A stretch of 64,000 nucleotides of DNA from Sphaerotilus natans. GTDB lineage: Bacteria > Pseudomonadota > Gammaproteobacteria > Burkholderiales > Burkholderiaceae_C. Numbering within the stretch: position 1 is the first letter of the stretch; each line of letters opens with the position of its first letter. The stretch is taken from contig NZ_FTMZ01000002.1 of assembly GCF_900156335.1 (NCBI RefSeq), forward strand, positions 186,001 through 250,000, read 5' to 3'. Below, one piece after another: positions 11,607 to 50,272 of this stretch. The position numbers and the translations under genes are program-made. The notes under the pieces were generated by a model, which saw only the letters and a list, made by a program, of their open reading frames with translations, was not told where the DNA came from and searched no databases.

Positions 11607-12584
11607 ATGATCGACATCACCCTCCAGAACTTCGAATCCGAACTGATCCAGGCCTCGATGCAGCAGCCGGTGCTGCTCGACATCTGGGCGCCGTGGTGCG
11701 GCCCGTGCAAGCAGCTCGGCCCGGTGCTCGAGAAGCTCGAGACCGAATACGCCGGTGGCTTCGTGCTGGCCAAGCTCAACGCCGACGAGGTGCCGGAGAT
11801 CGCCGGCCAGCTCAGCCAGATGTTCGGCGTGCGCTCGATCCCCTTCTGCGTGATGTTCGCGCAGGGCCAGCCGGTCGACGGCTTCGTCGGCGCGATTCCC
11901 GAGGCACAGATCCGCGAGTTCCTCGCCAAGCATGTGGCCACGCCCGAGCAGGTCGAGGCCGAGGAGGAGGTCGAGGAGGCCGAGCAGATGCTCGCCAGCG
12001 ACAAGCCGGACATTCACGCGGTGCTGGAGCGCCTGCGCGCCGCGGTCGAGACCGATCCGGCCAACGACGTCGCCTGGATCGACTACCTGAAGGTGCTGCT
12101 GGGCCTGGCCCGCCACGACGACGCGGCGCTGGCCGAGGCCCGCCAGGCCTACGCGCAGGTGGCGCCGCGCGCGCTGGCCGATGCGCGCTTCGCCGCGCTC
12201 GAGCACGGGCTGCTGGCCGCCGAGGCGGTGCGCGACGCCCGCGCCGCCGGCCGCAGCCCCGAGGCGCTGCGCGCGGCCATCGCCGCCACGCCGCGCGACT
12301 TCGCCGCCCGGCTGGAGCTGGCCCGCCACTTCTTCGCCGCCGGCGCGATGACCGAGGCGATGGACGAGCTGCTCGAGATCCTGATGCGCGACAAGGGCTG
12401 GAGCGACGGCCTGGCGCGCAAGACCTATGTCGCCATCCTGGAGCTGATGAGCAAGCCGGCCCCGAAGGCCGCGACGCCGGAAGCCAAGAAGGGCGCCGTC
12501 GAGATCGCCGGCAAGGCGGTGGTCGTGCCGGGCGACCCGGTGATCGACAGCTACCGCCGCAAGCTCAGCATGGTGCTGTTCTGA
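11607..12584 (+). CDS. cnoX: Thioredoxin-fold chaperedoxin CnoX (YbbN-like)
   Basis: A 325-residue protein with an N-terminal thioredoxin domain (about 1-105) and a C-terminal TPR-like helical region. The redox motif APWCGPCKQLG is intact, unlike the E. coli homologue in which the first Cys is absent, so this protein could be an active oxidoreductase as well as a holdase. The C-terminal repeats are alanine-rich helices of the YbbN type. I place the start at 11607 because similarity begins with IDITLQNFE; an in-frame ATG at 11535 would add 24 unconserved residues. Neither start has a clear ribosome binding site. The last 20 bp overlap the convergent neighbour. Confidence 0.88.
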   Translation: MIDITLQNFESELIQASMQQPVLLDIWAPWCGPCKQLGPVLEKLETEYAGGFVLAKLNADEVPEIAGQLSQMFGVRSIPFCVMFAQGQPVDGFVGAIPEAQIREFLAKHVATPEQVEAEEEVEEAEQMLASDKPDIHAVLERLRAAVETDPANDVAWIDYLKVLLGLARHDDAALAEARQAYAQVAPRALADARFAALEHGLLAAEAVRDARAAGRSPEALRAAIAATPRDFAARLELARHFFAAGAMTEAMDELLEILMRDKGWSDGLARKTYVAILELMSKPAPKAATPEAKKGAVEIAGKAVVVPGDPVIDSYRRKLSMVLF

Positions 12585-13677
12585 GCCCCAGCCGGTCCAG
12601 CCCGGCCAGCAGCGCCGCGATGCGATCGCTGTAGACGCGGTAGTGCGCCGCGCCGCGGTCCGCATGGATCGCGGCCACCTCGTCGAGACCGAGCCGGCGG
12701 AAGACCCGCTCGAGCATGCCGTGGGCGATGACCAGATCCTCGGGCTCGACGGCACCATGGAGCGCGGCCTCGGCATCGCGGGCGGTGCGCAGCGCCGCGT
12801 CGCTGCGGCCAAGCATCGCCAGGCACCAGGCCTGATCGGCACGGAACACGCTTTCCGAGACGCCGAGCCCCTCCTCGAGCGCCTTGCGGGTGTGCTCTTC
12901 GTAGAGCGCCAGCGCGGCCTCGAACTCGCCGGTCAGCAGCAGGATCTGCGCCCGGCGCATCGGCGGATGGTTGCTGAGCGCACGGGTCTGCACGCTGCGG
13001 TCCAGATGCACCGAGGACTCGGTGCCCAGCACCGCGCGGCGCAGCACGCCTTCCGGGCAGCCACCGGGATCGCGCAGATCGGCCACCCGGGCGTCGAGCA
13101 CCCGCAGGAAGGCCATGTTATACATGATGGAGCTGAGCGCGGCGCCGTCGCCCTCGGTGGTGGCGTGGCGGCGCGCCAGGGCGTACCAGGCCTGGGATTC
13201 CTCGTCCCGGCGCGCGTAGTGCAGCATGCCCGCCACCACCAGGCTGGCGCGCGAGCGCGCGCCGTGATGATCGGCACGCGCCAGCTTGAGCGCCAGCGCG
13301 ACATGCTCGAGCGCCGACGCGTCGTCGCGCACATAGAAATCCAGATGCGCCAGCCAGGCCGCCGCCAGCGACTGCACCCGCGCGTTGCGCGCGGTCTTGC
13401 CCAGCGCCAGCGAGCGGCGCACGCGCTCGTGCGAGCGCAGCGACAGGTCCGCGTAGAAGTCGCCCAGCCCCTCGGCCAGCAGCAGCCAGGCGTTGAGCAC
13501 CGGCATCGTCAGCATCTCGGGCGAGGCCCTGAGCGTGGCCACCTCCTGGCGCATGCGGTCCAGCTCGCCGAGCCGCGCCAGCACCACCGCACGCTCGGCG
13601 CGCAGCAGCGGCACCTCGCGCGGCAGGCGCGAGGCGGCGATCGCATCATCGAGCCGGGACAGCAGCCGGTTCATCAT
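12565..13677 (-). CDS. TPR-like helical repeat protein of unknown function
   Basis: A 370-residue soluble protein made of alanine/leucine-rich helix pairs resembling TPR repeats (for example LLTGEFEAALALYEEHTRKA and AWCLAMLGRSDAALRTARDAE). No signal peptide, DNA-binding or catalytic motif is apparent. TPR-only proteins commonly scaffold partners or form the sensor half of larger regulators, but this one has no effector domain. It lies 47 bp upstream, in the same direction, of nothing else obvious, with purC starting behind it, and its 3' end overlaps cnoX by 20 bp tail to tail. Function unknown. Confidence 0.6.
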   Translation of the reverse strand: MMNRLLSRLDDAIAASRLPREVPLLRAERAVVLARLGELDRMRQEVATLRASPEMLTMPVLNAWLLLAEGLGDFYADLSLRSHERVRRSLALGKTARNARVQSLAAAWLAHLDFYVRDDASALEHVALALKLARADHHGARSRASLVVAGMLHYARRDEESQAWYALARRHATTEGDGAALSSIMYNMAFLRVLDARVADLRDPGGCPEGVLRRAVLGTESSVHLDRSVQTRALSNHPPMRRAQILLLTGEFEAALALYEEHTRKALEEGLGVSESVFRADQAWCLAMLGRSDAALRTARDAEAALHGAVEPEDLVIAHGMLERVFRRLGLDEVAAIHADRGAAHYRVYSDRIAALLAGLDRLGLRTAPC

Positions 13678-41071: not shown

Positions 41072-41557
41072 TCAGCCCTGCACTTCCGGCCAGACGGTGT
41101 GGAAGAACTGGCCGGCCGGGCGGTCGGTGCGCTCGTAGGTGTGCGCGCCGAAGAAGTCGCGCTGGGCCTGCAGCAGGTTGGCCGGCAAGCGCGCGCTGCG
41201 GAAGGCGTCATAGAAGGCCAGCGAGGCCGACATCGCCGGCACCGGCACGCCAGCGAGCATCGCCTGCGCCACCACCCGGCGCCAGGCCGACTGCGCGCCG
41301 TTGAGCGCCGACTCGAAGTACGGCGCCAGCATCAGGCTGGCCGGCGCGGGGCCGTCGGCATGGGCCTCGGCGATGCGGTTGAGGAACTGCGCGCGGATGA
41401 TGCAGCCGCCGCGCCACAGCCGCGCGATCGCGCCCAGGTCGAGGTTCCAGCCGCGCTGCGCGCTCATGGTGCGCATCAGGTCCAGGCCCTGCGCGTAGCT
41501 GACGATCTTGCTGGCATAGAGCGCCTGGCGCAGCAGCCCGACCCACTCGGCCACCGG
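41072..41557 (-). pseudogene. Truncated copy of the gnd 3' end
   Basis: A 486-bp duplicate of the last third of gnd (48645-49130), including the stop codon. By eye only four bases differ, about 99% identity, and one change swaps Glu for Gly. It has no start of its own and joins abruptly at 41557/41558 to IS66-type transposase sequence on the other strand. The resulting chimeric open frame on the minus strand is an artefact of the junction. Confidence 0.9.
41072..41557. repeat. Left 486-bp direct repeat flanking the PYP island
   Basis: Matches 48645-49130 in the same orientation; offset 7573 bp. Recombination between the two copies would remove the transposase fragment and the island and leave a single intact gnd. 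Confidence 0.9.
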
Positions 41558-42257
41558 GCGCTGGCGGGCGAGCGCCCGGCCGGCGTGCTGGTGACGGACC
41601 GCTACGCGGTGTACGACTGGGTGGCGCCCGAGCGGCGCCAGGTGTGCTGGGCGCACCTGCTGCGCGACTTCGAGCGCATCGCCGGTCGGGCCGGGGCGGC
41701 GGGCAGTGCCGGCCGGCGCCTGCTCGGGCTGGGGCGGGTGATGTTCCGCTGGCGCGCGCGCGGCGCCGGCCCGGCCGAATTCGAAAGGTTGCAGGCCCGG
41801 GTGCACCAGGCGCTCGAGCGCGGCACGCGCGCAGGCTGCCGGCGCACCGCGCAGACCTGCGCCAACCTGCTCGCGCAGGAGGTCTCGCTGTGGACCTTCA
41901 CCCGGCACGCCGGCGTCGAGCCCACCAACAACGCCGCCGAGCAGGCGCTGCGCACGGTGGTGCTCAAGCGCAAGATCAGCGGCCCGACGCGCTCGACGCG
42001 CGGCCAGCAGTTTGTCGCCCGGGGCTTCTCCGCGATGGAGAGCTGCCGTCGCCAGGGCCGCGACCTGCGCGGCTGGATGGAACAGGCGCTGCGCGCCTGG
42101 CTGGGCGCCGGCCCGATGCCCTCGCTGCTGCCTGGCGGCTGAGCGCGCCGGCCGGGCTCGCTTCACTTCACCGCGTTGCTGTTCGTGCTTCCTGGTGGGC
42201 TGGGCTTGCCGGGAGGTGTGAGGCTGGGCGTGTCAAGGAGGGGGCGTGAATACGTAC
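41558..42257 (+). mobile_element. IS66-family remnant: 3' part of transposase TnpC and right end
   Basis: An open frame to the TGA at 42140-42142 encodes about 195 residues of the IS66 transposase C-terminus: GVLVTDRYAVYDWV, CWAHLLRDFERI, then the late motif VEPTNNAAEQALRTVVLKRK and ISGPTRSTRGQQF. The first two thirds of the transposase, the accessory tnpA/tnpB and the left end are missing, so it cannot move by itself. About 115 bp of non-coding sequence follow, ending GTGAATACGTAC, which resembles an IS66 right terminus; no matching left end exists in the window. Confidence 0.85.
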
Positions 42258-42263
42258 CTGGCC

Positions 42264-42950
42264 TCATGCCGTCGGCCAGGCCGCGCACTCCCATACCTCG
42301 GTGAAGTGCAGCAGCGGCACCAGGGCATCGTTGAGCAGATCATGCGGCGTGGCCAGGGCCGCCAGATCGAAGTCCGGCAAGACGACGGCGCCAGCCTCAG
42401 AAGTCGGCAGCACCGCGCCAGGCGGCACGCTGAGGGTCAGCCACAGCGCCCCATGATCTGCACGTCGACCACGCACGACGATGTCGCCCCGCATGGGCGC
42501 AGCGGCCAGCATGTCCAAGACAGACAAACTCGCCGATCCCATCAGGTCAGGCCAGCCGCCATCACCCAGCAGGCACACGGTCTGGTCATCGTGCATCACC
42601 TGTCGGCCATCAAGGCTCCACGCACCGGATGAGGACACGTCAACATTCGGCTCGATCTCCAAGGTGCGACCATCCCACAGGACGGCCACCAGCAACTGCA
42701 GCAGGGCCAGCCGCTCGGCCCGGCACACCCGCACGCGCAGGACATCAGGGCGCGTGCGCAGCAGTTGGACCCACACCTGCGCACCACTCCAGAGCGACGC
42801 TGCGCTGCGCAGACCGCCGACCTCAACCAACAGCGGCTCAGCACGACCATGTAGACGCGATCGCAATAAAGGTCGCCAAATGCCCTGGACAGGATGGGCA
42901 ACCGCGTCACTGAAGTTCAAGGAGGTCAGCATGATGGAATTGGAGCGCAT
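42264..42950 (-). CDS. Hypothetical protein divergent from the PYP cluster
   Basis: A 228-residue soluble protein (or 222 if the ATG at 42932 is used; neither start has a clear ribosome binding site). I do not recognise the family. It has alternating beta-like hydrophobic stretches (LLVEVGGLRSAASLW, ALLQLLVAVLW, LWLTLSVPPGAVLP), no signal peptide and no membrane helix. Base composition matches the lower-GC cargo, and it diverges from the coiled-coil gene across 186 bp, so it probably belongs to the island. It could be a regulator or partner of the light-sensing genes; nothing in the sequence proves that. Confidence 0.55.
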   Translation of the reverse strand: MRSNSIMLTSLNFSDAVAHPVQGIWRPLLRSRLHGRAEPLLVEVGGLRSAASLWSGAQVWVQLLRTRPDVLRVRVCRAERLALLQLLVAVLWDGRTLEIEPNVDVSSSGAWSLDGRQVMHDDQTVCLLGDGGWPDLMGSASLSVLDMLAAAPMRGDIVVRGRRADHGALWLTLSVPPGAVLPTSEAGAVVLPDFDLAALATPHDLLNDALVPLLHFTEVWECAAWPTA

Positions 42951-43136
42951 GTCAGCGAAAAACGCTCGACGAAAGTGGCAACTCCAACCTTAAGGTCTGT
43001 ACAGGCACCGCCGACAATCTTGTCGAGATCTGCACGCGCAGCTTGGACCCAACAATCCTCGTGAGTGATGCCCGAGGGGCAGTACAGCCCAAGCACGTGC
43101 GACACGGATCACTCAACCAGCAAGGCCTGATGCCCC

Positions 43137-43769
43137 ATGAATCTGTCACATCGCAACGCCTCCGCCGATTCGATCGACTCCCTGCGGGAAACACTGGCCA
43201 GCCTGGAGCAACAGCTAGCGTCGCTGTACGCCGACAAGGAACGCGAGAACAGCGCCTCCTTCTACGGAGACGAATCCCTGGCTGCTCTCTACGAGGACAA
43301 GCAGCGCTTGAGCGCCCGCACCATCGCCGAGCTGAACGAGACCGTGGACAACCTGACCGCGCAGCTGGCAGACGTCTATGCATTGCGCGAATCCGGTAGC
43401 GACATCGCCGACAGCAGCCTGCGCATCACCATCGAGGGTCTCAACCAGCAGCTCCACGCCCTGTACGAGGAGCGCGAACTGAACGAGCGCTTCGCAGCGT
43501 TGCCGGAGAGTGGCGTCGCGGCGCTGCAGGCCACAGTGCAATCGCTCGAAGCCCAGTTGGCAGCCTTCTACGAGGAGTGCGAAGGCCAGAGCCTGGGGCG
43601 CCGCGATCTGGCGTGTATGGCGGAAAGCCTCACGGAGCAGGTGGCCGTACTCCTGGAAGAACGCAACGACCTTGCACAGGAATGCGAAAACCTCAAAGCA
43701 GACCTGCGCACCGCCAAGCGACGCGCACGCGCCATGATCGACGCACTCGTGGCGCAATCGCTCAACTGA
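43137..43769 (+). CDS. Coiled-coil protein with internal repeats, PYP island
   Basis: A 210-residue protein rich in Glu, Leu, Gln and Ala, predicted to be almost all coiled coil and cytoplasmic. It contains about five copies of a motif near LxxQLAxLYxxxE, for example LEQQLASLYADKE, LTAQLADVYALRE, LNQQLHALYEERE, LEAQLAAFYEECE and LTEQVAVLLEERN, spaced 35-50 residues apart. I find no known domain. Being first in the apparent operon, 96 bp before the PYP gene, it may be a structural or signal-transmitting partner. The end is basic (AKRRARAMIDALV). Confidence 0.65.
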   Translation: MNLSHRNASADSIDSLRETLASLEQQLASLYADKERENSASFYGDESLAALYEDKQRLSARTIAELNETVDNLTAQLADVYALRESGSDIADSSLRITIEGLNQQLHALYEERELNERFAALPESGVAALQATVQSLEAQLAAFYEECEGQSLGRRDLACMAESLTEQVAVLLEERNDLAQECENLKADLRTAKRRARAMIDALVAQSLN

Positions 43770-43865
43770 AGTTCATCAGTTGCCTTCCCGGACAGGTGGA
43801 CGGAATGCCCAAAGTTTTCCCGAATCCTGTCCTGTCTCAAGCTTCCATGGCAGTTTGGAGTGACC

Positions 43866-44240
43866 ATGACTTTTGTTTCCGCTCAGTTCCTCTCACAAAT
43901 TCCGTCGGTTGACCGTGGCGCGGCTGATGCGCAGCCGTATGGGGTGGTCCAAGTGGATGACCAAGGCGTCATCAAGCTCTACAACAAGTGGGAATCCGAG
44001 ATGGCCGGCGTACCCATCTCCACAGCCGAGGGCAGCAACTTCTTCACCCAGGTCGCCGCCTGCACCAACAACCGCCTGGTTTTCGGCAAGTTCAAGGATG
44101 GTGTGGCCCGGAACGACTTGGACACAGAATTCAATTACACATTCACCTACAAGATGAAACCGACGAATGTGCGTATCCGACTGCTGCGCCACTCGCCTTC
44201 CGGGTCGAACTGGGTCTTCGTGAACATGCGCACCGCCTGA
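43866..44240 (+). CDS. pyp: Photoactive yellow protein (PYP) homologue
   Basis: A 124-126 residue PAS-fold blue-light receptor. The match to the PYP family runs along the whole chain: PYGVVQVDDQGVIKLYN, GSNFFTQVAACTN, VFGKFKDGV, FNYTFTYKMKPTNVRIRL and NWVFV. With an offset of three from the Halorhodospira numbering, the chromophore-binding Cys69 is Cys66, Tyr42 is Tyr39, Glu46 is Glu43, Tyr98 is Tyr95 and Met100 is Met97, so the thioester-linked p-coumaric acid site is intact. Thr50 and Arg52 are replaced by Ala47 and Val49. TTTGGAG lies just before the ATG. A p-coumarate ligase of the PYP-activating type lies in the same cluster (47369), which strongly supports the assignment. Confidence 0.93.
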   Translation: MTFVSAQFLSQIPSVDRGAADAQPYGVVQVDDQGVIKLYNKWESEMAGVPISTAEGSNFFTQVAACTNNRLVFGKFKDGVARNDLDTEFNYTFTYKMKPTNVRIRLLRHSPSGSNWVFVNMRTA

Positions 44241-44295
44241 CGGGCAGGAACGCCTCCCACCCATCATTCACGACAAACCCCACCGGAATCGATCC

Positions 44296-44748
44296 ATGAC
44301 CTACGACCTTCCGCAACGGTTGTCCCGCATCGCGGACACCGACATCGTGTCCGCAGACACGGAGGCTTTCCTGGCTGCGGTGAGCATCACCGAGCAGGCC
44401 CGCACTTTGGTGTGGCATGAAGCCCAATCTACCGCCTTCCAGATCCGTACCCTGGCCGACGCCATGTGCGACCCCGAGGACGCTGAGGAGCTATACGGAG
44501 CTCTGGCCTCGCTGTGGCTGGAACTGCGCCTGCAGTGGCAGCGCCACAACGACGTGGCCAACTACGATTTAATGCGCCATGGCGAGGCCAAGCCCATCGA
44601 TCTGGTGCGCGGCAGCGTCAGCTCCTACTACTTCGAGCGCATCGAGTCCCTGCTTCAGCCCGATCAGATCATGTGCCTGAATCAAAAGGCACTGGCACTC
44701 ATCGACAGCCTGCGCCAAGATGTGGCGAGCGCCGCTGAGAAAGCATGA
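44296..44748 (+). CDS. Helical protein sharing a domain with the CheA-like protein downstream
   Basis: A 150-residue, all-helical, soluble protein of no named family that I recognise. Residues about 65-140 align with the N-terminal region of the protein at 45805: LASLWLELRLQWQRHN against LANAWLELRLIWNRCN, then a Tyr, a Met, Gly and a GS pair at matching positions, and a Leu-rich end with Asp-Gln/Ser and Lys. The two are therefore paralogous modules. Its TGA overlaps the next gene's ATG (ATGA). It sits between pyp and the HDOD gene and is a natural candidate for a PYP-binding or dimerising partner, by inference only. Confidence 0.7.
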   Translation: MTYDLPQRLSRIADTDIVSADTEAFLAAVSITEQARTLVWHEAQSTAFQIRTLADAMCDPEDAEELYGALASLWLELRLQWQRHNDVANYDLMRHGEAKPIDLVRGSVSSYYFERIESLLQPDQIMCLNQKALALIDSLRQDVASAAEKA

Positions 44749-45788
44749 TGAAAATGCTGCGCTTCTTTCTAGGATCGTTGGGATGGCTTCGACGCCCTGA
44801 AGAATCGACACCTGAAACGAAGCGCGCGTTGCAGGGACCGGCGTCCCCTCCCCTCGAGCCCCAGGCGCCCGCTCCTGCACCAACGCAGCAAGCTACGCCG
44901 GTGCCAGATCCGTTGACCTACTGGCATACGCAACGCGACCTGCGCCATCAGCTCGTGAACAAGCACGCTCCCAACGTTCCCGATGCCCGCGCGCTGGTTG
45001 ATCTGCTCGACAGTGGCCCTGACGATTTGATCCGGCAATTGCCGGCTTCAGCCCGGGAGGCTCTGGCGCTGTGTGATGACACTAACCTGCCCAGATCACG
45101 CTTAGTCAGCCAGCTCTCGCGCGACCCCAGCCTGATGGAGGCCATCCTGCGCACCGCCAACAGCAGCGCCTTCAGCAGTGGGCGCGAGCCGGTGCTGGGC
45201 ATGGAGGCTGCGCTCGACCGTATCGGCGTGGGTAATGCACGCGGGGTGATCACATCTAGCTGCGCCAGCAACCTGCTGTCGCTGCCAGGCGGGCATTACA
45301 ACGCGATGGCAGCACAAGTGTGGGCGCACATGATCCGCAGTGGCCCCATCGCCCAATGCCTGGCCCCGGCCTTGTCCGTCAACCCGGATGAAGCCATGAC
45401 GCTGGCGCTGCTGCATGATGTTGGCAAGCTCGTCGTCTTCGATCGCCTGTCGGTGCTGCGCGCCACACGCCGGCGCAGCATCGACCTACCGCCAGACTTC
45501 GTGCAGGCCCTTCTGTCGACGACCCACGAAGCGCTGGGCGCTCTAGCCGCACAGCGCTGGCAGCTCGGACCGCGTGCAGCAGCGGCCATCGGCAACCACC
45601 ATCGTCAGTTGGAGGCCCTGCACCACGAACCACTCTCAGAAGCCCTGTACTTGGCGAATGTAGTGAGCCACGTCCTGTCGCGCAACGAGACAGTTGATCT
45701 CGACGAGGTATGGACCCAGGGCGCGCTGTCAGTCCCTCGTCCACGCATCGAGGCGATTCTGAAACGCTGGGCGGCTGAGCCCGTCTGA
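44745..45788 (+). CDS. HDOD-domain signalling protein
   Basis: A 347-residue cytoplasmic protein. Residues 1-60 are basic then Pro/Gln/Ala-rich and probably disordered; the HDOD domain spans about 95-310. Typical marks are LVSQLSRDPSLMEAILRTANSS-like helices, EAALDRIGVGNARGVI, and ALLHDVGKLVVFD with an HD pair at His224-Asp225. HDOD proteins lack proven phosphodiesterase activity and act as signal-output or scaffold proteins, often beside chemotaxis and cyclic-di-GMP systems. ATGA overlap with the previous gene and a 16-bp gap to the CheA-like gene argue for one operon. Confidence 0.85.
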   Translation: MMKMLRFFLGSLGWLRRPEESTPETKRALQGPASPPLEPQAPAPAPTQQATPVPDPLTYWHTQRDLRHQLVNKHAPNVPDARALVDLLDSGPDDLIRQLPASAREALALCDDTNLPRSRLVSQLSRDPSLMEAILRTANSSAFSSGREPVLGMEAALDRIGVGNARGVITSSCASNLLSLPGGHYNAMAAQVWAHMIRSGPIAQCLAPALSVNPDEAMTLALLHDVGKLVVFDRLSVLRATRRRSIDLPPDFVQALLSTTHEALGALAAQRWQLGPRAAAAIGNHHRQLEALHHEPLSEALYLANVVSHVLSRNETVDLDEVWTQGALSVPRPRIEAILKRWAAEPV

Positions 45789-45804
45789 AGCACAACACCA
45801 CGCC

Positions 45805-47244
45805 ATGTACGAAAGACTGCAAAGCGTCCTCTCTGTGCTGAACGCCGGAGCCTTGCGGCAGCAGGCGGACTCGATGTTGGCCGACATGGGAGTAGACGAA
45901 CATGCATACCTGCAGCTGACTGACCATTACCTAAGCCACATCGAAGGAATAGCTCAGGCCCTGCGCGACGTATGTCCCGACGGTGATACCTACGAGCTGC
46001 CCCAGAGCTTGGCCAACGCTTGGCTGGAGCTGCGGCTGATCTGGAATCGCTGCAACCAGCAAATGCAGTACCAGAACATGCAGGACGGCGCCTCGCCGGG
46101 CCTGATGGTCGCGGGCTCCCTGATCGGGCAGCTGTTGGACAACCTTCGTCCGTTCCTAGATGTAGACAGTCTGCTGCTGGTGGACAAGATCGGCACCGAT
46201 CTTTATGAAACCGCGCGCCGCGCCAGCGAGCAGAACAGGCGCCTGCTCGAACGCATGAGCCGCGCTAGCGATGGGGCCAACCGCGCCGTCGAGTCCCTGC
46301 TGATGGCACTGGAACAGGTCCAGCAACAGCTACAGGCCCCCGAGGTTCGGCGCGAACTCGACAAGGCCGTGGAGGTGGTGGTGGAGGAGATCGAGCGCGC
46401 CTTGGTCCTGACCGGAGAAGACATAGGCGCGGCACTTGAGGCACGTCTGCTGAAGGCGCTGGACGGCTCCGCCCTGCGTGTTCTGCCGCAGCTACAGGGT
46501 TTTGACAACAAGACCTGCATGCAGCCTGACGTGGCAAGGTTGCTGGTGGACCTGAGCGAAGAATGGGCGCTGGCCCTGAAAGAGCAAGCACTGAACCACA
46601 GCGTCGAAGAGCGCATTACAGACCACCAGACAGCCTTCGTGACACTGAAAGTCCAGATCAGCGTAGACGCCAATGACCTGATCCTGACTTTCGACGACGA
46701 CGGTGACGGCACGGTGGTGTACGCGCGCAACCGGCCCTCGGATGCGGTGCACAACGTCCGCCTGAACCTGGTGCAAGAAGAAGGGCGCGGACGACGGCTG
46801 GAGGCGCGCTGCAACCTGCGCAAGGTGATCGACTATCTGGTCATCCGATCGCTCGACGACGCCGCGGACGGCTGGCTGGCCGTACCCTTGAGCAACGTGG
46901 AATCGATCGAGCAGCGCAGCACCGAGCAGCTACGCATGCGTGGCAACGTGCTCACAGCTCGGGACAGCGGTGAAGTCATCCCCGTGGTAGATGCTGGACT
47001 CCTGCTATTCAACGAACACAATGTCCATCAGCAACAAGATGCCTATGTGATCGTACAGCACGACAGAGGTCGCCGCATGGCCCTACGCGTATCCGGCATC
47101 GAAGGAACACGTCGGGCTGCGCTGCACGCGGTACCAGAAGGGCTGCACGCCACCCGGCTCCGCGGCTTCATCCAGTCCGAAAGACGGGTGATTGGTGTAC
47201 TGAATCTGGCAGAAATCGGCCGCATGCAGAGCCGTGCAGCTTGA
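45805..47244 (+). CDS. CheA-like protein: degenerate HATPase-like region plus CheW-like domain, no H-box
   Basis: A 479-residue cytoplasmic protein. Residues 1-145 are the module shared with the small protein at 44296. Residues about 145-215 are coiled-coil helices. Residues about 235-345 resemble a worn CheA kinase domain: QALNHSVEER sits where RNAxDHG is expected, and DDDGDG (297-302) where DDGRG is expected, but no G2-type glycine loop is visible. Residues about 352-475 are a CheW-like regulatory domain (WLAVPLSNVESIEQR, GEVIPVVDAGLLL, MALRVSGIEGTRRAAL, RVIGVLNLAEIG). There is no recognisable Hpt/P1 histidine domain, so it should not act as an ordinary autophosphorylating kinase. Confidence 0.75.
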   Translation: MYERLQSVLSVLNAGALRQQADSMLADMGVDEHAYLQLTDHYLSHIEGIAQALRDVCPDGDTYELPQSLANAWLELRLIWNRCNQQMQYQNMQDGASPGLMVAGSLIGQLLDNLRPFLDVDSLLLVDKIGTDLYETARRASEQNRRLLERMSRASDGANRAVESLLMALEQVQQQLQAPEVRRELDKAVEVVVEEIERALVLTGEDIGAALEARLLKALDGSALRVLPQLQGFDNKTCMQPDVARLLVDLSEEWALALKEQALNHSVEERITDHQTAFVTLKVQISVDANDLILTFDDDGDGTVVYARNRPSDAVHNVRLNLVQEEGRGRRLEARCNLRKVIDYLVIRSLDDAADGWLAVPLSNVESIEQRSTEQLRMRGNVLTARDSGEVIPVVDAGLLLFNEHNVHQQQDAYVIVQHDRGRRMALRVSGIEGTRRAALHAVPEGLHATRLRGFIQSERRVIGVLNLAEIGRMQSRAA

Positions 47245-47261
47245 ATCCGGTATGTACACAC

Positions 47262-47269
47262 GCCGATAA
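47262..47269 (+). promoter_or_regulatory. FliA (sigma-28)-like -10 element
   Basis: GCCGATAA matches the flagellar sigma-28 -10 consensus exactly and lies 18 bp after the stop of the CheA-like gene and 100 bp before the ligase start. The -35 region at the expected distance is poor (GAAT in place of TAAA). A second, weaker GACGATAA lies about 65 bp further on. Weak evidence that the ligase is read in step with motility genes. Confidence 0.3.
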
Positions 47270-47368
47270 AACAACCCATTGTGGTTTTGCTCACCAGACT
47301 GCCCACGGCAGCAAGACGATAAAAAATCCACTCCTCCATCTGACGCAGCCCATTCTGCACGGCACAAC

Positions 47369-48628
47369 ATGGACCTCCTGGAACAGCCCGCCTCCTTCGC
47401 TGACCACCAGGTTCAGCCCTGGCACCAGCAAGCCAGCGCGCTAGCGCGCTTCATAGCTGATCTGGTCGTGGATGAAACATCCTACCTGCGACCAGGTGCT
47501 GCAGCCCTGTCAGCCGGACCTTGGCCGCTGGAGACTCCGCTGAACGAGGACGGCCTGGGGCTGGACTCGCTGGAGCGCATGTCCGTGGCAGCCGCACTCA
47601 GTCAGACGCTGCATCTGCACGAGAGCAGCGCCGATGAACTGCTGACCGCCCACGCCACCTTCGGCGACTGGCTGCGAATCACCGGGCAGGCGCTGGCGCA
47701 GGTGGACGCCCGGCTGACTTTCCGCACATCGGGCAGCAGCGGTCAGCCCAAGCCCTGCACGCACACCCTGGCCGACCTGCAGCAGGAAACCCGCTTCCTC
47801 GCACGCCTGTTCACCGGCGCGCATCGCAAACCCCTGCGCCGCGTGCTAACGGCCGTGCCGGCACACCACATCTACGGCTTCCTGTTCACCGTGCTGCTGC
47901 CGGTCGAGCTGGGGCACCTGCCGGTGCAAGACGTGCGCAGGGTCACCGTCAACGACCTGCCCCGGCGCATGGCCGCCGGCGACCTGCTGGTGAGCCACCC
48001 CGCGCACTGGGCGCTGCTGGCACGTCATGCCAGCGCCTTGCCCGCCGGGGTGATCGGCACCACATCCACGGCCCCCTGCCCGGACGAGACCGCGCAGGCG
48101 CTGACGCGTTGCGGCCTGCAGCGGCTGGTGCAGGTGTACGGCAGTTCCGAAACCGCAGGCATCGCATGGCGTGATGCGCCGGCAGCCCACTATGAACTGA
48201 TGGCTCACTGGACGCGCCCGGACAATCAGGCCCACGATCTGCTGCGCCACTCGGACGCTGGGGACACGCGCGCATTCGCGCTACAAGATGCGTTGAAGTG
48301 GCACGGTCCGCGCCACTTCAACGTGATGGGCCGCCTGGATCAGGCGGTGCAGGTGGGTGGCATCAATGTGTTCCCCTCACGGGTGCGCGACGTGCTGCTG
48401 CAGCATCCAGAGGTGGCGGACGCCGCCGTGCGACTGATGGCCCTGCAGGATAGCGCCCGGCTCAAGGCCTTTGTCGTGCCCAGGCCCGAGGCCGACATCA
48501 CCGACCTGACGCAGCGGCTCGACACCTGGCTGGCCCCTCGGCTGAGCGCGGCCGAGCGCCCGCGCGCCTTTGCGCTGGGAAGTGAGCTGCCGCGCAACGC
48601 CCAAGGCAAGCTGGCCGACTGGGTGTAA
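47369..48628 (+). CDS. pcl: 4-coumarate ligase, PYP-chromophore-activating type, with carrier-like N-terminus
   Basis: A 419-residue member of the acyl-adenylate-forming family that activates p-coumaric acid for attachment to PYP. Adenylation motifs: TFRTSGSSGQPKPCTHT (118-133, P-loop), VYGSSETAG (256-264), GRLDQAVQVGG (321-331) and the catalytic lysine in LPRNAQGKLADW (Lys414). It is shorter than plant or degradative 4-coumarate ligases, as in PYP clusters. Residues about 25-110 resemble an acyl carrier protein, with LGLDSLER placing Ser67 where a phosphopantetheine would attach. It starts at 47369 after 124 non-coding bases and ends 16 bp before the convergent gnd stop. Confidence 0.9.
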   Translation: MDLLEQPASFADHQVQPWHQQASALARFIADLVVDETSYLRPGAAALSAGPWPLETPLNEDGLGLDSLERMSVAAALSQTLHLHESSADELLTAHATFGDWLRITGQALAQVDARLTFRTSGSSGQPKPCTHTLADLQQETRFLARLFTGAHRKPLRRVLTAVPAHHIYGFLFTVLLPVELGHLPVQDVRRVTVNDLPRRMAAGDLLVSHPAHWALLARHASALPAGVIGTTSTAPCPDETAQALTRCGLQRLVQVYGSSETAGIAWRDAPAAHYELMAHWTRPDNQAHDLLRHSDAGDTRAFALQDALKWHGPRHFNVMGRLDQAVQVGGINVFPSRVRDVLLQHPEVADAAVRLMALQDSARLKAFVVPRPEADITDLTQRLDTWLAPRLSAAERPRAFALGSELPRNAQGKLADWV

Positions 48629-48644
48629 CACCCGCCGGCCGATA

Positions 48645-49130
48645 TCAGCCCTGCACTTCCGGCCAGACGGTGTGGAAGAACTGGCCGGCCGGGCGGTCGG
48701 TGCGCTCGTAGGTGTGCGCGCCGAAGAAGTCGCGCTGGGCCTGCAGCAGGTTGGCCGGCAGGCGCGCGCTGCGGAAGGCGTCATAGAAGGCCAGCGAGGC
48801 CGACATCGCCGGCACCGGCACGCCGGCGAGCATCGCCTGCGCCACCACCCGGCGCCAGGCCGACTGCGCGCCGTTGAGCGCCGACTCGAAGTACGGCGCC
48901 AGCATCAGGCTGGCCGGCGCGGGGCCGTCGGCATGGGCCTCGGCGATGCGGTTGAGGAACTGCGCGCGGATGATGCAGCCGCCGCGCCACAGCCGCGCGA
49001 TCGCGCCCAGGTCGAGGTTCCAGCCGCGCTGCGCGCTCATGGTGCGCATCAGGTCCAGGCCCTGCGCGTAGCTGACGATCTTGCTGGCGTAGAGCGCCTG
49101 GCGCAGCAGCTCGACCCACTCGGCCACCGG
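48645..49130. repeat. Right 486-bp direct repeat (3' end of the intact gnd)
   Basis: The partner of 41072-41557, beginning at the gnd stop codon. Beyond 49130 the two diverge completely, marking the repeat end precisely. Confidence 0.9.
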
Positions 49131-50066
49131 CAGGTCGATGCGCGCCTCGGGCCCCTGCAGCCGGGTGCTGGCCGCCAGCCGCGTGGCCTTCATCGACGAC
49201 AGCACGCGCGCGTCCACCGCCGCGCCCATCGTGCTGACCACCACCGCGTTCTGCGCCGCGTTCATCAGCGTCCACTGGCCGGTGCCCTTCTGGCCGGCCT
49301 TGTCGAGGATGACATCGACGATCGGCGCGCCGGTGTCGGGATCGCGCTGCGCCAGGATGCGCGCGGTGATCTCGATCAGGTAGCTGCGCAGCTCGCCACG
49401 GTTCCATTCCTCGAAGACGGCCGCCATCGTGTCGGTGTCCAGACCGGCGGCCTGCATCAGCGCGTAGGCCTCGCAGATCAGCTGCATGTCGCCGTACTCG
49501 ATGCCGTTGTGCACCATCTTGACGTAGTGGCCCGCGCCGCCCGGGCCGATGTGCGAGACGCAGGGCTCGCCGTCGACCTTGGCGCTGATGGCCTCGAACA
49601 TCGGGCGCAGCGCGTCCCAGGCCTCGTCCGGGCCGCCAGGCATGATGGCCGGGCCCTTGCGCGCGCCCTCCTCGCCGCCGGAGACGCCCGCGCCCACGAA
49701 GCACAGGCCGGCGGCGGCCAGCTCGGCCGAGCGGCGCTCGGTGTCGGCGAACAGGCTGTTGCCGCCATCGACCAGGATGTCGCCCGGCGCGAGCAGCGGC
49801 GCGATCCTGGCGATCACGTCGTCCACCGGCGCGCCGGCGTTGACCATCATCAGCACCTTGCGCGGCGCGGCCAGGCTGGCGACGAAGTCGGCCAGCGACG
49901 CGAAGCCGTGCAGCCGCCCGGTGGTGTCATCGGCCACGCTGCGCGTCACCGCCTCGGGCGAGCGGTCATGCAGGCTGACGTCGAAGCCGTGGTCGGCGAG
50001 GTTCAGGGCCAGGCTGCGGCCCATCACCCCCAGGCCGATCAGGCCGATGGGATGCTTGGTGGTCAT
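48645..50066 (-). CDS. gnd: 6-phosphogluconate dehydrogenase, decarboxylating
   Basis: Oxidises 6-phosphogluconate to ribulose 5-phosphate and CO2 with NADP in the pentose phosphate pathway. From the ATG at 50066 the protein has 473 residues. N-terminal Rossmann motif IGLIGLGVMGRSLALN, then VDGGNSLFADT, GAGVSGGEEGARKGPAIMPGG with the catalytic region, YVKMVHNGIEYGDMQLI with the active-site Lys, and the C-terminal helical part ending FHTVWPEVQG. Its last 486 bp are duplicated at the far side of the PYP island, but this copy is intact. Confidence 0.96.
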   Translation of the reverse strand: MTTKHPIGLIGLGVMGRSLALNLADHGFDVSLHDRSPEAVTRSVADDTTGRLHGFASLADFVASLAAPRKVLMMVNAGAPVDDVIARIAPLLAPGDILVDGGNSLFADTERRSAELAAAGLCFVGAGVSGGEEGARKGPAIMPGGPDEAWDALRPMFEAISAKVDGEPCVSHIGPGGAGHYVKMVHNGIEYGDMQLICEAYALMQAAGLDTDTMAAVFEEWNRGELRSYLIEITARILAQRDPDTGAPIVDVILDKAGQKGTGQWTLMNAAQNAVVVSTMGAAVDARVLSSMKATRLAASTRLQGPEARIDLPVAEWVELLRQALYASKIVSYAQGLDLMRTMSAQRGWNLDLGAIARLWRGGCIIRAQFLNRIAEAHADGPAPASLMLAPYFESALNGAQSAWRRVVAQAMLAGVPVPAMSASLAFYDAFRSARLPANLLQAQRDFFGAHTYERTDRPAGQFFHTVWPEVQG

Positions 50067-50247
50067 GCGGGAGTCCGGTTCTTTTCGGGAAAACCCTCGA
50101 TTTTCCATGCAGCCCGCTGTCGACCGGCTGTCAGGGGCTCCCGGGGGGCGGGACGGGTGCGTCAGGGCTATCGACGGGGCGGGCGGGGGACTTGATTTCC
50201 GGAAAGGGCAGATGCCGCAGAAGCCCCGCACCGGACACCCCAACGAC

Positions 50248-50272
50248 AAGGGACCGCCGAGGCGGTCCCTTT
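50248..50272 (-). terminator. Terminator hairpin after glmS
   Basis: AAGGGACCGCC and GGCGGTCCCTT flank a 2-nt spacer in a strong stem 38 bp after the glmS stop. The tail on the minus strand is not T-rich (GTCGTTGG), while on the plus strand TTT continues, so efficiency is uncertain. Confidence 0.6.

Follow-up and report, generated by a model that had tools for sequence, protein, structure and literature searches.

Photoactive yellow protein (PYP) has been described beside several kinds of signalling partner, and the locus reported here, in a 64,000-nt stretch of the Sphaerotilus natans genome (contig NZ_FTMZ01000002.1; hereafter the window, to whose positions the coordinates below refer), shares part of its composition with each of these systems. 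The locus, termed the cassette, contains seven genes encoding a PYP, a PYP chromophore ligase, an HDOD-domain protein, a CheA-like protein of 479 residues, and three further proteins designated cc210, hp150 and hp228. The seven genes travel together in two congeneric genomes, with purifying selection on each gene and reciprocal empty sites.

In the clade C pyp operons (Caballeronia sp. M1242, L111; Rhizobium tumorigenes, L112), as in the cassette, a PYP and its own ligase stand beside signalling genes (main texts of PMC9664959 and PMC12826048). The ligases of these operons have the same carrier-plus-ligase build. Their signalling genes encode the cyclic di-GMP enzymes GGDEF and EAL, whereas the cassette has HDOD, CheA-like and helical proteins instead, and clade C PYPs have lost Phe92, Phe96 and Trp119 (main text of PMC9664959), all of which are kept in the cassette PYP. 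The PYP-phytochrome-histidine kinase Ppr of Rhodocista centenaria is, like the cassette, a case of PYP tied to the chemotaxis linker CheW; the kinase domain and not the PYP domain binds CheW, with a dissociation constant of 0.13 μM, and Ppr expression affects E. coli chemotaxis (available part of PMC2993699). While Ppr is a single fusion protein, the cassette consists of separate genes, one of which encodes a CheA-like protein that carries a CheW-like domain itself and whose ATP site is degenerate. In the clade B systems, which comprise PYP-MCP fusions and PYPs encoded beside sensor-less MCPs (main texts of PMC12826048 and PMC9664959), the proposed output is likewise the chemoreceptor array; these systems use an MCP, whereas the cassette lacks one, and its entry point would be an adaptor rather than a receptor. 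The pyp-pCL-TAL operon of H. halophila (main text of PMC12826048) has a PYP and a ligase in common with the cassette, but there is no TAL in the cassette or, by the PF00221 profile, in the genome.

Among 113 pyp operons surveyed in the main text of PMC12826048, GGDEF occurred in 29, EAL in 22, HISKA in 8, HATPase_c in 9, pCL in 42, TAL in 7 and BLUF in 2. The terms HDOD and CheW are absent from that main text and from the available part of PMC9664959, and no literature joining photoactive yellow protein with HDOD was found. The statement in a preliminary description of the window that no characterised pathway has this composition thus agrees with the main texts of the two pyp-operon surveys (PMC12826048, PMC9664959). 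The composition is new within the literature searched, while a PYP feeding a chemosensory path is, from the available part of that literature, already known. Both surveys name the signal relay from single-domain PYPs as unknown (main texts of PMC9664959 and PMC12826048). The compact cassette brings candidate PYP partners together in a single gene cluster. Two genomes have kept this cluster intact, congeners lack it at the sites concerned, and it could be moved whole into a laboratory strain for gene-by-gene dissection.

Gene content and layout of the cassette

The preliminary description had listed six adjacent genes on one strand, and the corresponding open reading frames (ORFs) were found at those places and on that strand. 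The unit is larger, with hp228 on the minus strand as its seventh member, and the full insert occupies 41558-48644. The features are as follows.

43137-48628, plus strand: the six genes cc210, PYP, hp150, HDOD, CheA-like and ligase, from the ORF list
41072..41557, minus strand: left direct repeat, a second copy of the final 486 bp of gnd (matching 48645-49130 at 482 of 486 positions)
41580..42142, plus strand: truncated IS66 transposase, of which a C-terminal part is present, with an approximate left limit (PF03050, E 4.6e-13; NF033517, 107.8 bits, below the cut-off of 180)
42264..42950, minus strand: hp228, an orphan protein from a divergently oriented gene and a cassette member (orthologue beside the second cassette, 60% identity)
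43137..43769, plus strand: cc210, a coiled-coil protein with repeated LY segments (matches to coiled-coil families, weak only)
43860..44240, plus strand: photoactive yellow protein (TIGR02373, 102.4 bits; PYPs in the PDB, E 1.4e-23; key residues)
44296..44748, plus strand: hp150, a free-standing version of the N-terminal helical module of the CheA-like protein (29% identity, E 2.3e-7)
44745..45788, plus strand: HDOD-domain protein (PF08668, 98.0 bits)
45805..47244, plus strand: CheA-like protein of 479 residues, with a helical module, a coiled coil, a degenerate ATPase region and a CheW-like domain (PF01584, 33.8 bits; alignments with CheA)
47369..48628, plus strand: PYP chromophore ligase, with an acyl-carrier-like region ahead of a shortened AMP-binding ligase part (TIGR02372, 323.2 bits)
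48645..49130, minus strand: right direct repeat, the 3′ end of the intact gnd gene at 48645-50249 (pairwise identity with the left repeat)

The ligase most likely starts at the ATG at 47369 and not at the TTG at 47279, since the ligase of the second copy starts at the corresponding methionine. The lower GC content that had been noted for the region was borne out, with values of 0.606-0.638 in the five kilobases from 43001 to 48000 and 0.634-0.762 in the other 59. At third codon positions, the GC content of the seven genes was 0.72-0.82, compared with 0.93-0.96 for rep, cynS, gnd and glmS; in the second copy, the corresponding values were 0.79-0.89 for the cassette genes and 0.89-0.96 for three flanking host genes. 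The labels rep, glmS, decarboxylase, yigZ-like, GNAT and BLUF used in this study were assigned by eye.

A second copy and reciprocal empty sites

A scan of genome contigs with the 479-residue protein, which picks up close relatives only, returned a single relative with 77% identity on contig JAUPTP010000021.1 (locus L034) of a river metagenome-assembled genome (MAG). All seven genes are present at this locus, ordered and oriented as in the window. The amino acid identities by tblastn were 60% for hp228, 70% for cc210, 89% for PYP, 81% for hp150, 70% for the HDOD protein (73% in a separate alignment), 77% for the CheA-like protein and 79% for the ligase. Co-occurrence of the gene set in another genome had been proposed as a check, and the second copy, which lies at another site in a congener, provides it, so that the view of the genes as one coherent unit is upheld by an identical set, order and orientation.

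L034 is the exact reverse complement of contig C546 of G1058, a genome listed in the genus of the window. The decarboxylase gene beside the L034 cassette encodes a protein 94-95% identical in amino acid sequence to those of the window genome (G000) and of the relatives G1059 and G1060, which places the contig in this genus. The cassette occupies 4825-11390 of L034, between the decarboxylase and a yigZ-like gene. At that site the two genes are separated by around 20 bases in the window genome (L148) and around 12 in G1059 (L149), with no cassette between them; in L150, from the third genome of the comparison, no match was obtained for the yigZ side. Conversely, the site between gnd and cynS that holds the window copy is empty in three relatives with a very similar gnd, namely G1059 (L103), G1060 (L104) and the MAG itself (L105). 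The 3′ end of gnd is followed directly by cynS in L103 and L105 and lies around 0.9 kb from it in L104; the contig of L105 extends 55 bases past the repeat and stops within gnd.

Between the window genome and the MAG, the nucleotide identity was 94-96% for rep, cynS, gnd, the decarboxylase and the yigZ-like gene, but 72-82% for the cassette. Because of this difference, together with the reciprocal empty sites, the two occurrences are likely separate insertions of diverged cassette copies. Two observations complicate this interpretation. Positions 1-2646 of L034, beyond the decarboxylase, are themselves only 72-75% identical to the three compared relatives, and divergence alone is therefore no proof of separate acquisition, although the difference in sites is independent of the identities. 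In addition, L148 and L149 carry around 2 kb after the yigZ-like gene that is absent from L034.

The two copies of the gnd 3′ end in the window are 99% alike, compared with 95-96% identity to other species, so the duplication appears to be of recent date. An insert of this appearance would result if incoming DNA with a gnd end had recombined with gnd through a single crossover. The region had been called mobile, and the reciprocal empty sites support acquisition at these two places, but a complete mobility gene was seen in neither copy: the window copy holds no complete integrase or transposase, only the IS66 fragment, and neither such a gene nor the IS66 fragment was recognised among the ORFs of the MAG insert, which were inspected by eye for the former.

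Selection and distribution

Nonsynonymous (dN) and synonymous (dS) divergence between the two copies, calculated with the NG86 method, was 0.30 and 0.75 for hp228, 0.20 and 0.72 for cc210, 0.058 and 0.99 for PYP, 0.14 and 0.72 for hp150, 0.18 and 0.81 for the HDOD protein, 0.14 and 0.88 for the CheA-like protein, and 0.13 and 0.54 for the ligase. The dN/dS ratios of 0.06-0.40 indicate purifying selection on all seven genes, with the strongest constraint on PYP.

Further carriers were sought in samples of genomes at the family, order, class and phylum level. Among 369 class genomes, three had a match to the CheA-like protein at E<=1e-3, and in two of them the match was weak and confined to the CheW part. 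The cassette was not found on the plasmids or viral contigs searched. Searched with the protein itself, the congeners G058, G170 and G248 lacked the CheA-like protein; for the other congeners, the evidence for absence of the cassette consists of the empty sites and the type of PYP. The hp228 protein had no match in Pfam, NCBIfam or PHROGs, and was detected in no fetched locus except its own and L034 (tblastn, 0.01).

The photoreceptor

The PYP keeps Tyr42, Glu46 and Cys69, in accordance with the intact pocket core described for it, and matches PYPs in the PDB with an E value of 1.4e-23. Compared with the H. halophila PYP, 14 of 18 tabulated positions agree, and the differences are I31V, T50A, R52V and P68A. 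The family consensus at position 50 is alanine, and absorption maxima of 435-465 nm have been measured for the four Ala50 PYPs studied to date (main text of PMC12826048). The TIGR02373 score of 102.4 bits is below the curated cut-off of 143.05, a cut-off that appears strict, since PYP matches at E<=1e-10 occurred in 12 of 399 order genomes and only one of the 399 reached it.

In a quick tree of 32 rows, in which the window PYP was entered twice, the window, L034, H. halophila and other PYPs were set apart from the rows of clade C type with a support of 0.999, and the window and L034 PYPs sat on a long branch. The label "clade C type" was assigned here from residues. Judged by its sequence, the cassette PYP falls outside clade C, the usual type in Burkholderiales. 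Of the six PYP loci from congeners that were compared, only the one in G1058 had a close match to it (89%).

The window genome has a second PYP, of clade C type, beside a PAS-GGDEF gene (G000:C21:47405-47764; L024 9400-9789), with orthologues in G1059 and G1060 that are 88-91% identical. As the cassette ligase is the sole TIGR02372 match at E<=1e-30 in this genome, it may serve both PYPs of the host. In another congener a classic PYP lies next to a ligase, and each scores above its curated cut-off (G1055:C8:32974-34559). In G421 (L021 8636-12951), four PYP genes surround one ligase, and a BLUF-like protein was recognised by eye at 12457-12951, so that two kinds of blue-light receptor occur together in this cluster.

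The CheA-like protein, the HDOD protein and the host arrays

The novel module reported to be shared by two of the proteins was recovered as a similarity of 29% (E 2.3e-7) between hp150 and the N-terminus of the CheA-like protein. The HDOD domain (PF08668, 98.0 bits, gathering score 22.9) and the CheW-like domain (PF01584, 33.8 bits, gathering score 23.5) were also confirmed. The name CheA, which had been given to the 479-residue protein, holds for a resemblance to CheA with a CheW-like domain, but the ATP-binding motifs are degenerate or missing. In alignments the CheA N-box (NAIDHG/NSLDHG) corresponds to QALNHS and G1 to DDGDG, while a gap takes the place of the ATP lid and G2. The HMMER alignment with a CheA structure (E 0.074) and the hhalign alignments have weak scores and the same register. 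For the comparison with host proteins, two of 25 CheW loci passed the motif filter, flanks being short, and one of these, L061, has a TGA within the match.

In a shuffle control, the score of the ATPase region (226-345) was equalled by none of 60 shuffles, as was that of 226-479; region 1-117 was equalled by two of 60 and region 118-225 by none, the latter over 11 columns. The AF2 model of the protein was confident only for around residues 1-117. Taken together, the protein looks like a CheA relative that has lost catalysis and kept docking. A 487-residue CheW protein near a PYP in Caballeronia sp. M1242 (L111) was considered as a relative and rejected, since it looks like a triple-CheW protein and phmmer gave no match with the module proteins.

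Both hosts encode the partners that such docking would use, with 29 MCP signalling domains in the window genome and 26 in the MAG, and 14 and 11 CheW domains, respectively, the cassette's own included. The cyclic di-GMP output suggested earlier was not supported: no GGDEF, EAL or HD-GYP match was found with Pfam in the seven genes, and HDOD is not HD-GYP. HDOD genes were also found around 4 kb from clade-C-type PYPs in two other loci (L030 4252-5226; L033 4018-5010), and HDOD may recur as a neighbour of PYP.

Proposed mechanism and alternative outputs

We propose that the cassette, acquired horizontally, adds a blue-light input to a host with existing chemoreceptor arrays, and consider the chances of this proposal to be about even. 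Blue light is assumed from the PYP family. From what is known of the families, the ligase would activate p-coumarate, which would be supplied from outside the cell or by another route, as no ammonia-lyase was found, and would load it on Cys69 of PYP, perhaps via the serine of its own carrier region. Photoactivated PYP could then alter the state of the helical modules, namely hp150 and the N-terminus of the CheA-like protein, as their anatomy suggests; these modules could pair or compete, scaffolded by cc210. Since its ATP site is lost and the CheW-like domain is kept, the CheA-like protein would act as an array adaptor that changes the kinase output of the host and hence motility. The HDOD protein could be a second output, HDOD proteins being known to affect motility in several other bacteria (available part of PMC11004494). 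A signalling path in which the helical proteins link PYP with an output, as had been suggested, is what we infer from this arrangement. If true, array docking through a CheA without a kinase would be a new way of adding a sense to chemotaxis.

Several results weigh against this proposal. Only two genomes are known to carry the cassette; the CheA-like protein was found in one of 299 family genomes and the helical module (hp150) in one of 398 phylum genomes, in each case the window genome itself, and no full-length relative of the CheA-like protein other than its own occurred among the 369 class genomes. The CheW match of the L034 protein (22.4 bits) is just under the Pfam score of 23.5, hhalign with the two host CheAs gave a probability of 2.7% for the full-length protein, and 20 of 60 shuffles equalled the CheW part when this was compared separately, so that the CheW identity rests on the Pfam match. 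Moreover, the cassette encodes no MCP or CheY, and neither the window genome (completeness 100) nor the MAG (68% complete) yielded a PF00221 lyase at E<=1e-10.

An alternative, which we regard as unlikely, is that the CheW-like domain serves only to join the parts of an internal complex and makes no contact with the host array, the cassette being a light-responsive regulator of surface behaviour or gene regulation with the HDOD protein as its output. The HDOD genes near PYPs in L030 and L033 and the altered motility of HDOD mutants fit this alternative, as does the overlap of four bases between the hp150 stop and the hdod start, by which the two genes are probably translationally coupled; it accounts less well for the CheA-like protein, which is the largest part of the cassette and 77% identical between the copies, and for the presence of arrays for docking in both hosts.

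The ligase and the source of the chromophore

The assignment of the ligase as TIGR02372-like was sound, with a score of 323.2 bits, 11 short of the curated cut-off of 334.7. The AMP-binding profile PF00501 (45.6 bits, cut-off 29.9) was matched only from position 168 of 384, which indicates that the usual N-terminal part of an AMP-binding ligase is absent. The protein hp228 was considered as this missing part from a likeness seen by eye and was rejected: hhalign against 18 AMP-binding proteins of its own genome gave 0.5%, the AF2 model had a mean pLDDT of 37.9, Foldseek returned nothing at E<=0.001, and the best sequence match in the PDB (E 1.8) was an unrelated chain. The relatives of the ligase among the fetched loci and plasmids sit in PYP loci.

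When the N-terminal region was searched as a profile of seven ligases, acyl carrier proteins were the top PDB matches (E 1.5e-4), and 59 of the 60 PDB rows shown were by name acyl carrier proteins or carrier subunits of complex I, the other being PigH. The serine of the motif DS(L/I) is present in all 19 PYP-type ligases compared, each of which has an N-terminal acyl-carrier-like region; in the window ligase, of 419 residues, this serine is Ser67. The 19 come from the window, L034, six further PYP loci in the order, 10 plasmid records represented by their best-matching place, and a congener (window, L034, L008, L021, L023, L029-L031, L107-L109, L111-L117 and L121), and include one identical pair and one pair with 97% identity. 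The Pfam PP-binding profile was reached only below its cut-off, in four of the seven ligases, and hhalign of the region with three nonribosomal peptide synthetase carriers of its own genome gave 0.4%, with a score under the best of 100 shuffles. The word "carrier" is absent from the main texts of PMC12826048 and PMC9664959, and no literature on phosphopantetheine or an acyl carrier in PYP ligases was found in the parts available; a paper that mentions both PYP and phosphopantetheine concerns chalcones.

From these sequence features, PYP ligases as a family may conceivably hand over the chromophore on a built-in phosphopantetheine arm, instead of or besides free CoA, and with the carrier-like region present in all 19 ligases, the attachment of the chromophore to PYP deserves to be re-examined. 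A broader idea combines this step with the cassette as a transferable "light plug-in", in which PYP, the carrier-ligase that belongs to it and a CheA derivative without kinase activity feed light into the array of a new host, with the ligase handing over the chromophore on a phosphopantetheine arm; this is possible, though on balance somewhat doubtful.

The lack of a PF00221 lyase in both hosts, as opposed to its presence in six of 13 searched genomes with PYP matches, bears on a further explanation, in which PYP is a coincidence detector of light and external phenylpropanoids and is loaded only when p-coumarate-type compounds are present. The low number of pyp operons with TAL and the uptake suggested in some bacteria (main text of PMC12826048) agree with this explanation, as does the position of the cassette ligase as the only strong TIGR02372 match of the window genome, but a lyase or route outside PF00221 is possible and the MAG is incomplete. 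We consider it rather improbable; it adds an input condition and is compatible with an input to the arrays. That a PYP and ligase pair was merely carried in with unrelated passenger DNA, as the IS66 fragment and a GC content below most of the window could indicate for foreign DNA, is highly improbable and already largely refuted by L034, where the seven genes recur at another site with the same order and borders and with purifying selection on each.

Two other loci were observed in connection with ligases and carriers. On a plasmid of Indioceanicola profundi (L107 5932-11077), pyp, a ligase, an ammonia-lyase, a GGDEF gene and a second PYP-like gene annotated as hypothetical form one run. In the window genome, G000:C33 61421-77179 (L075, L077, L081 and L086) contains several AMP-binding domains in long frames, three of them with carrier motifs, and is probably a nonribosomal peptide synthetase cluster.

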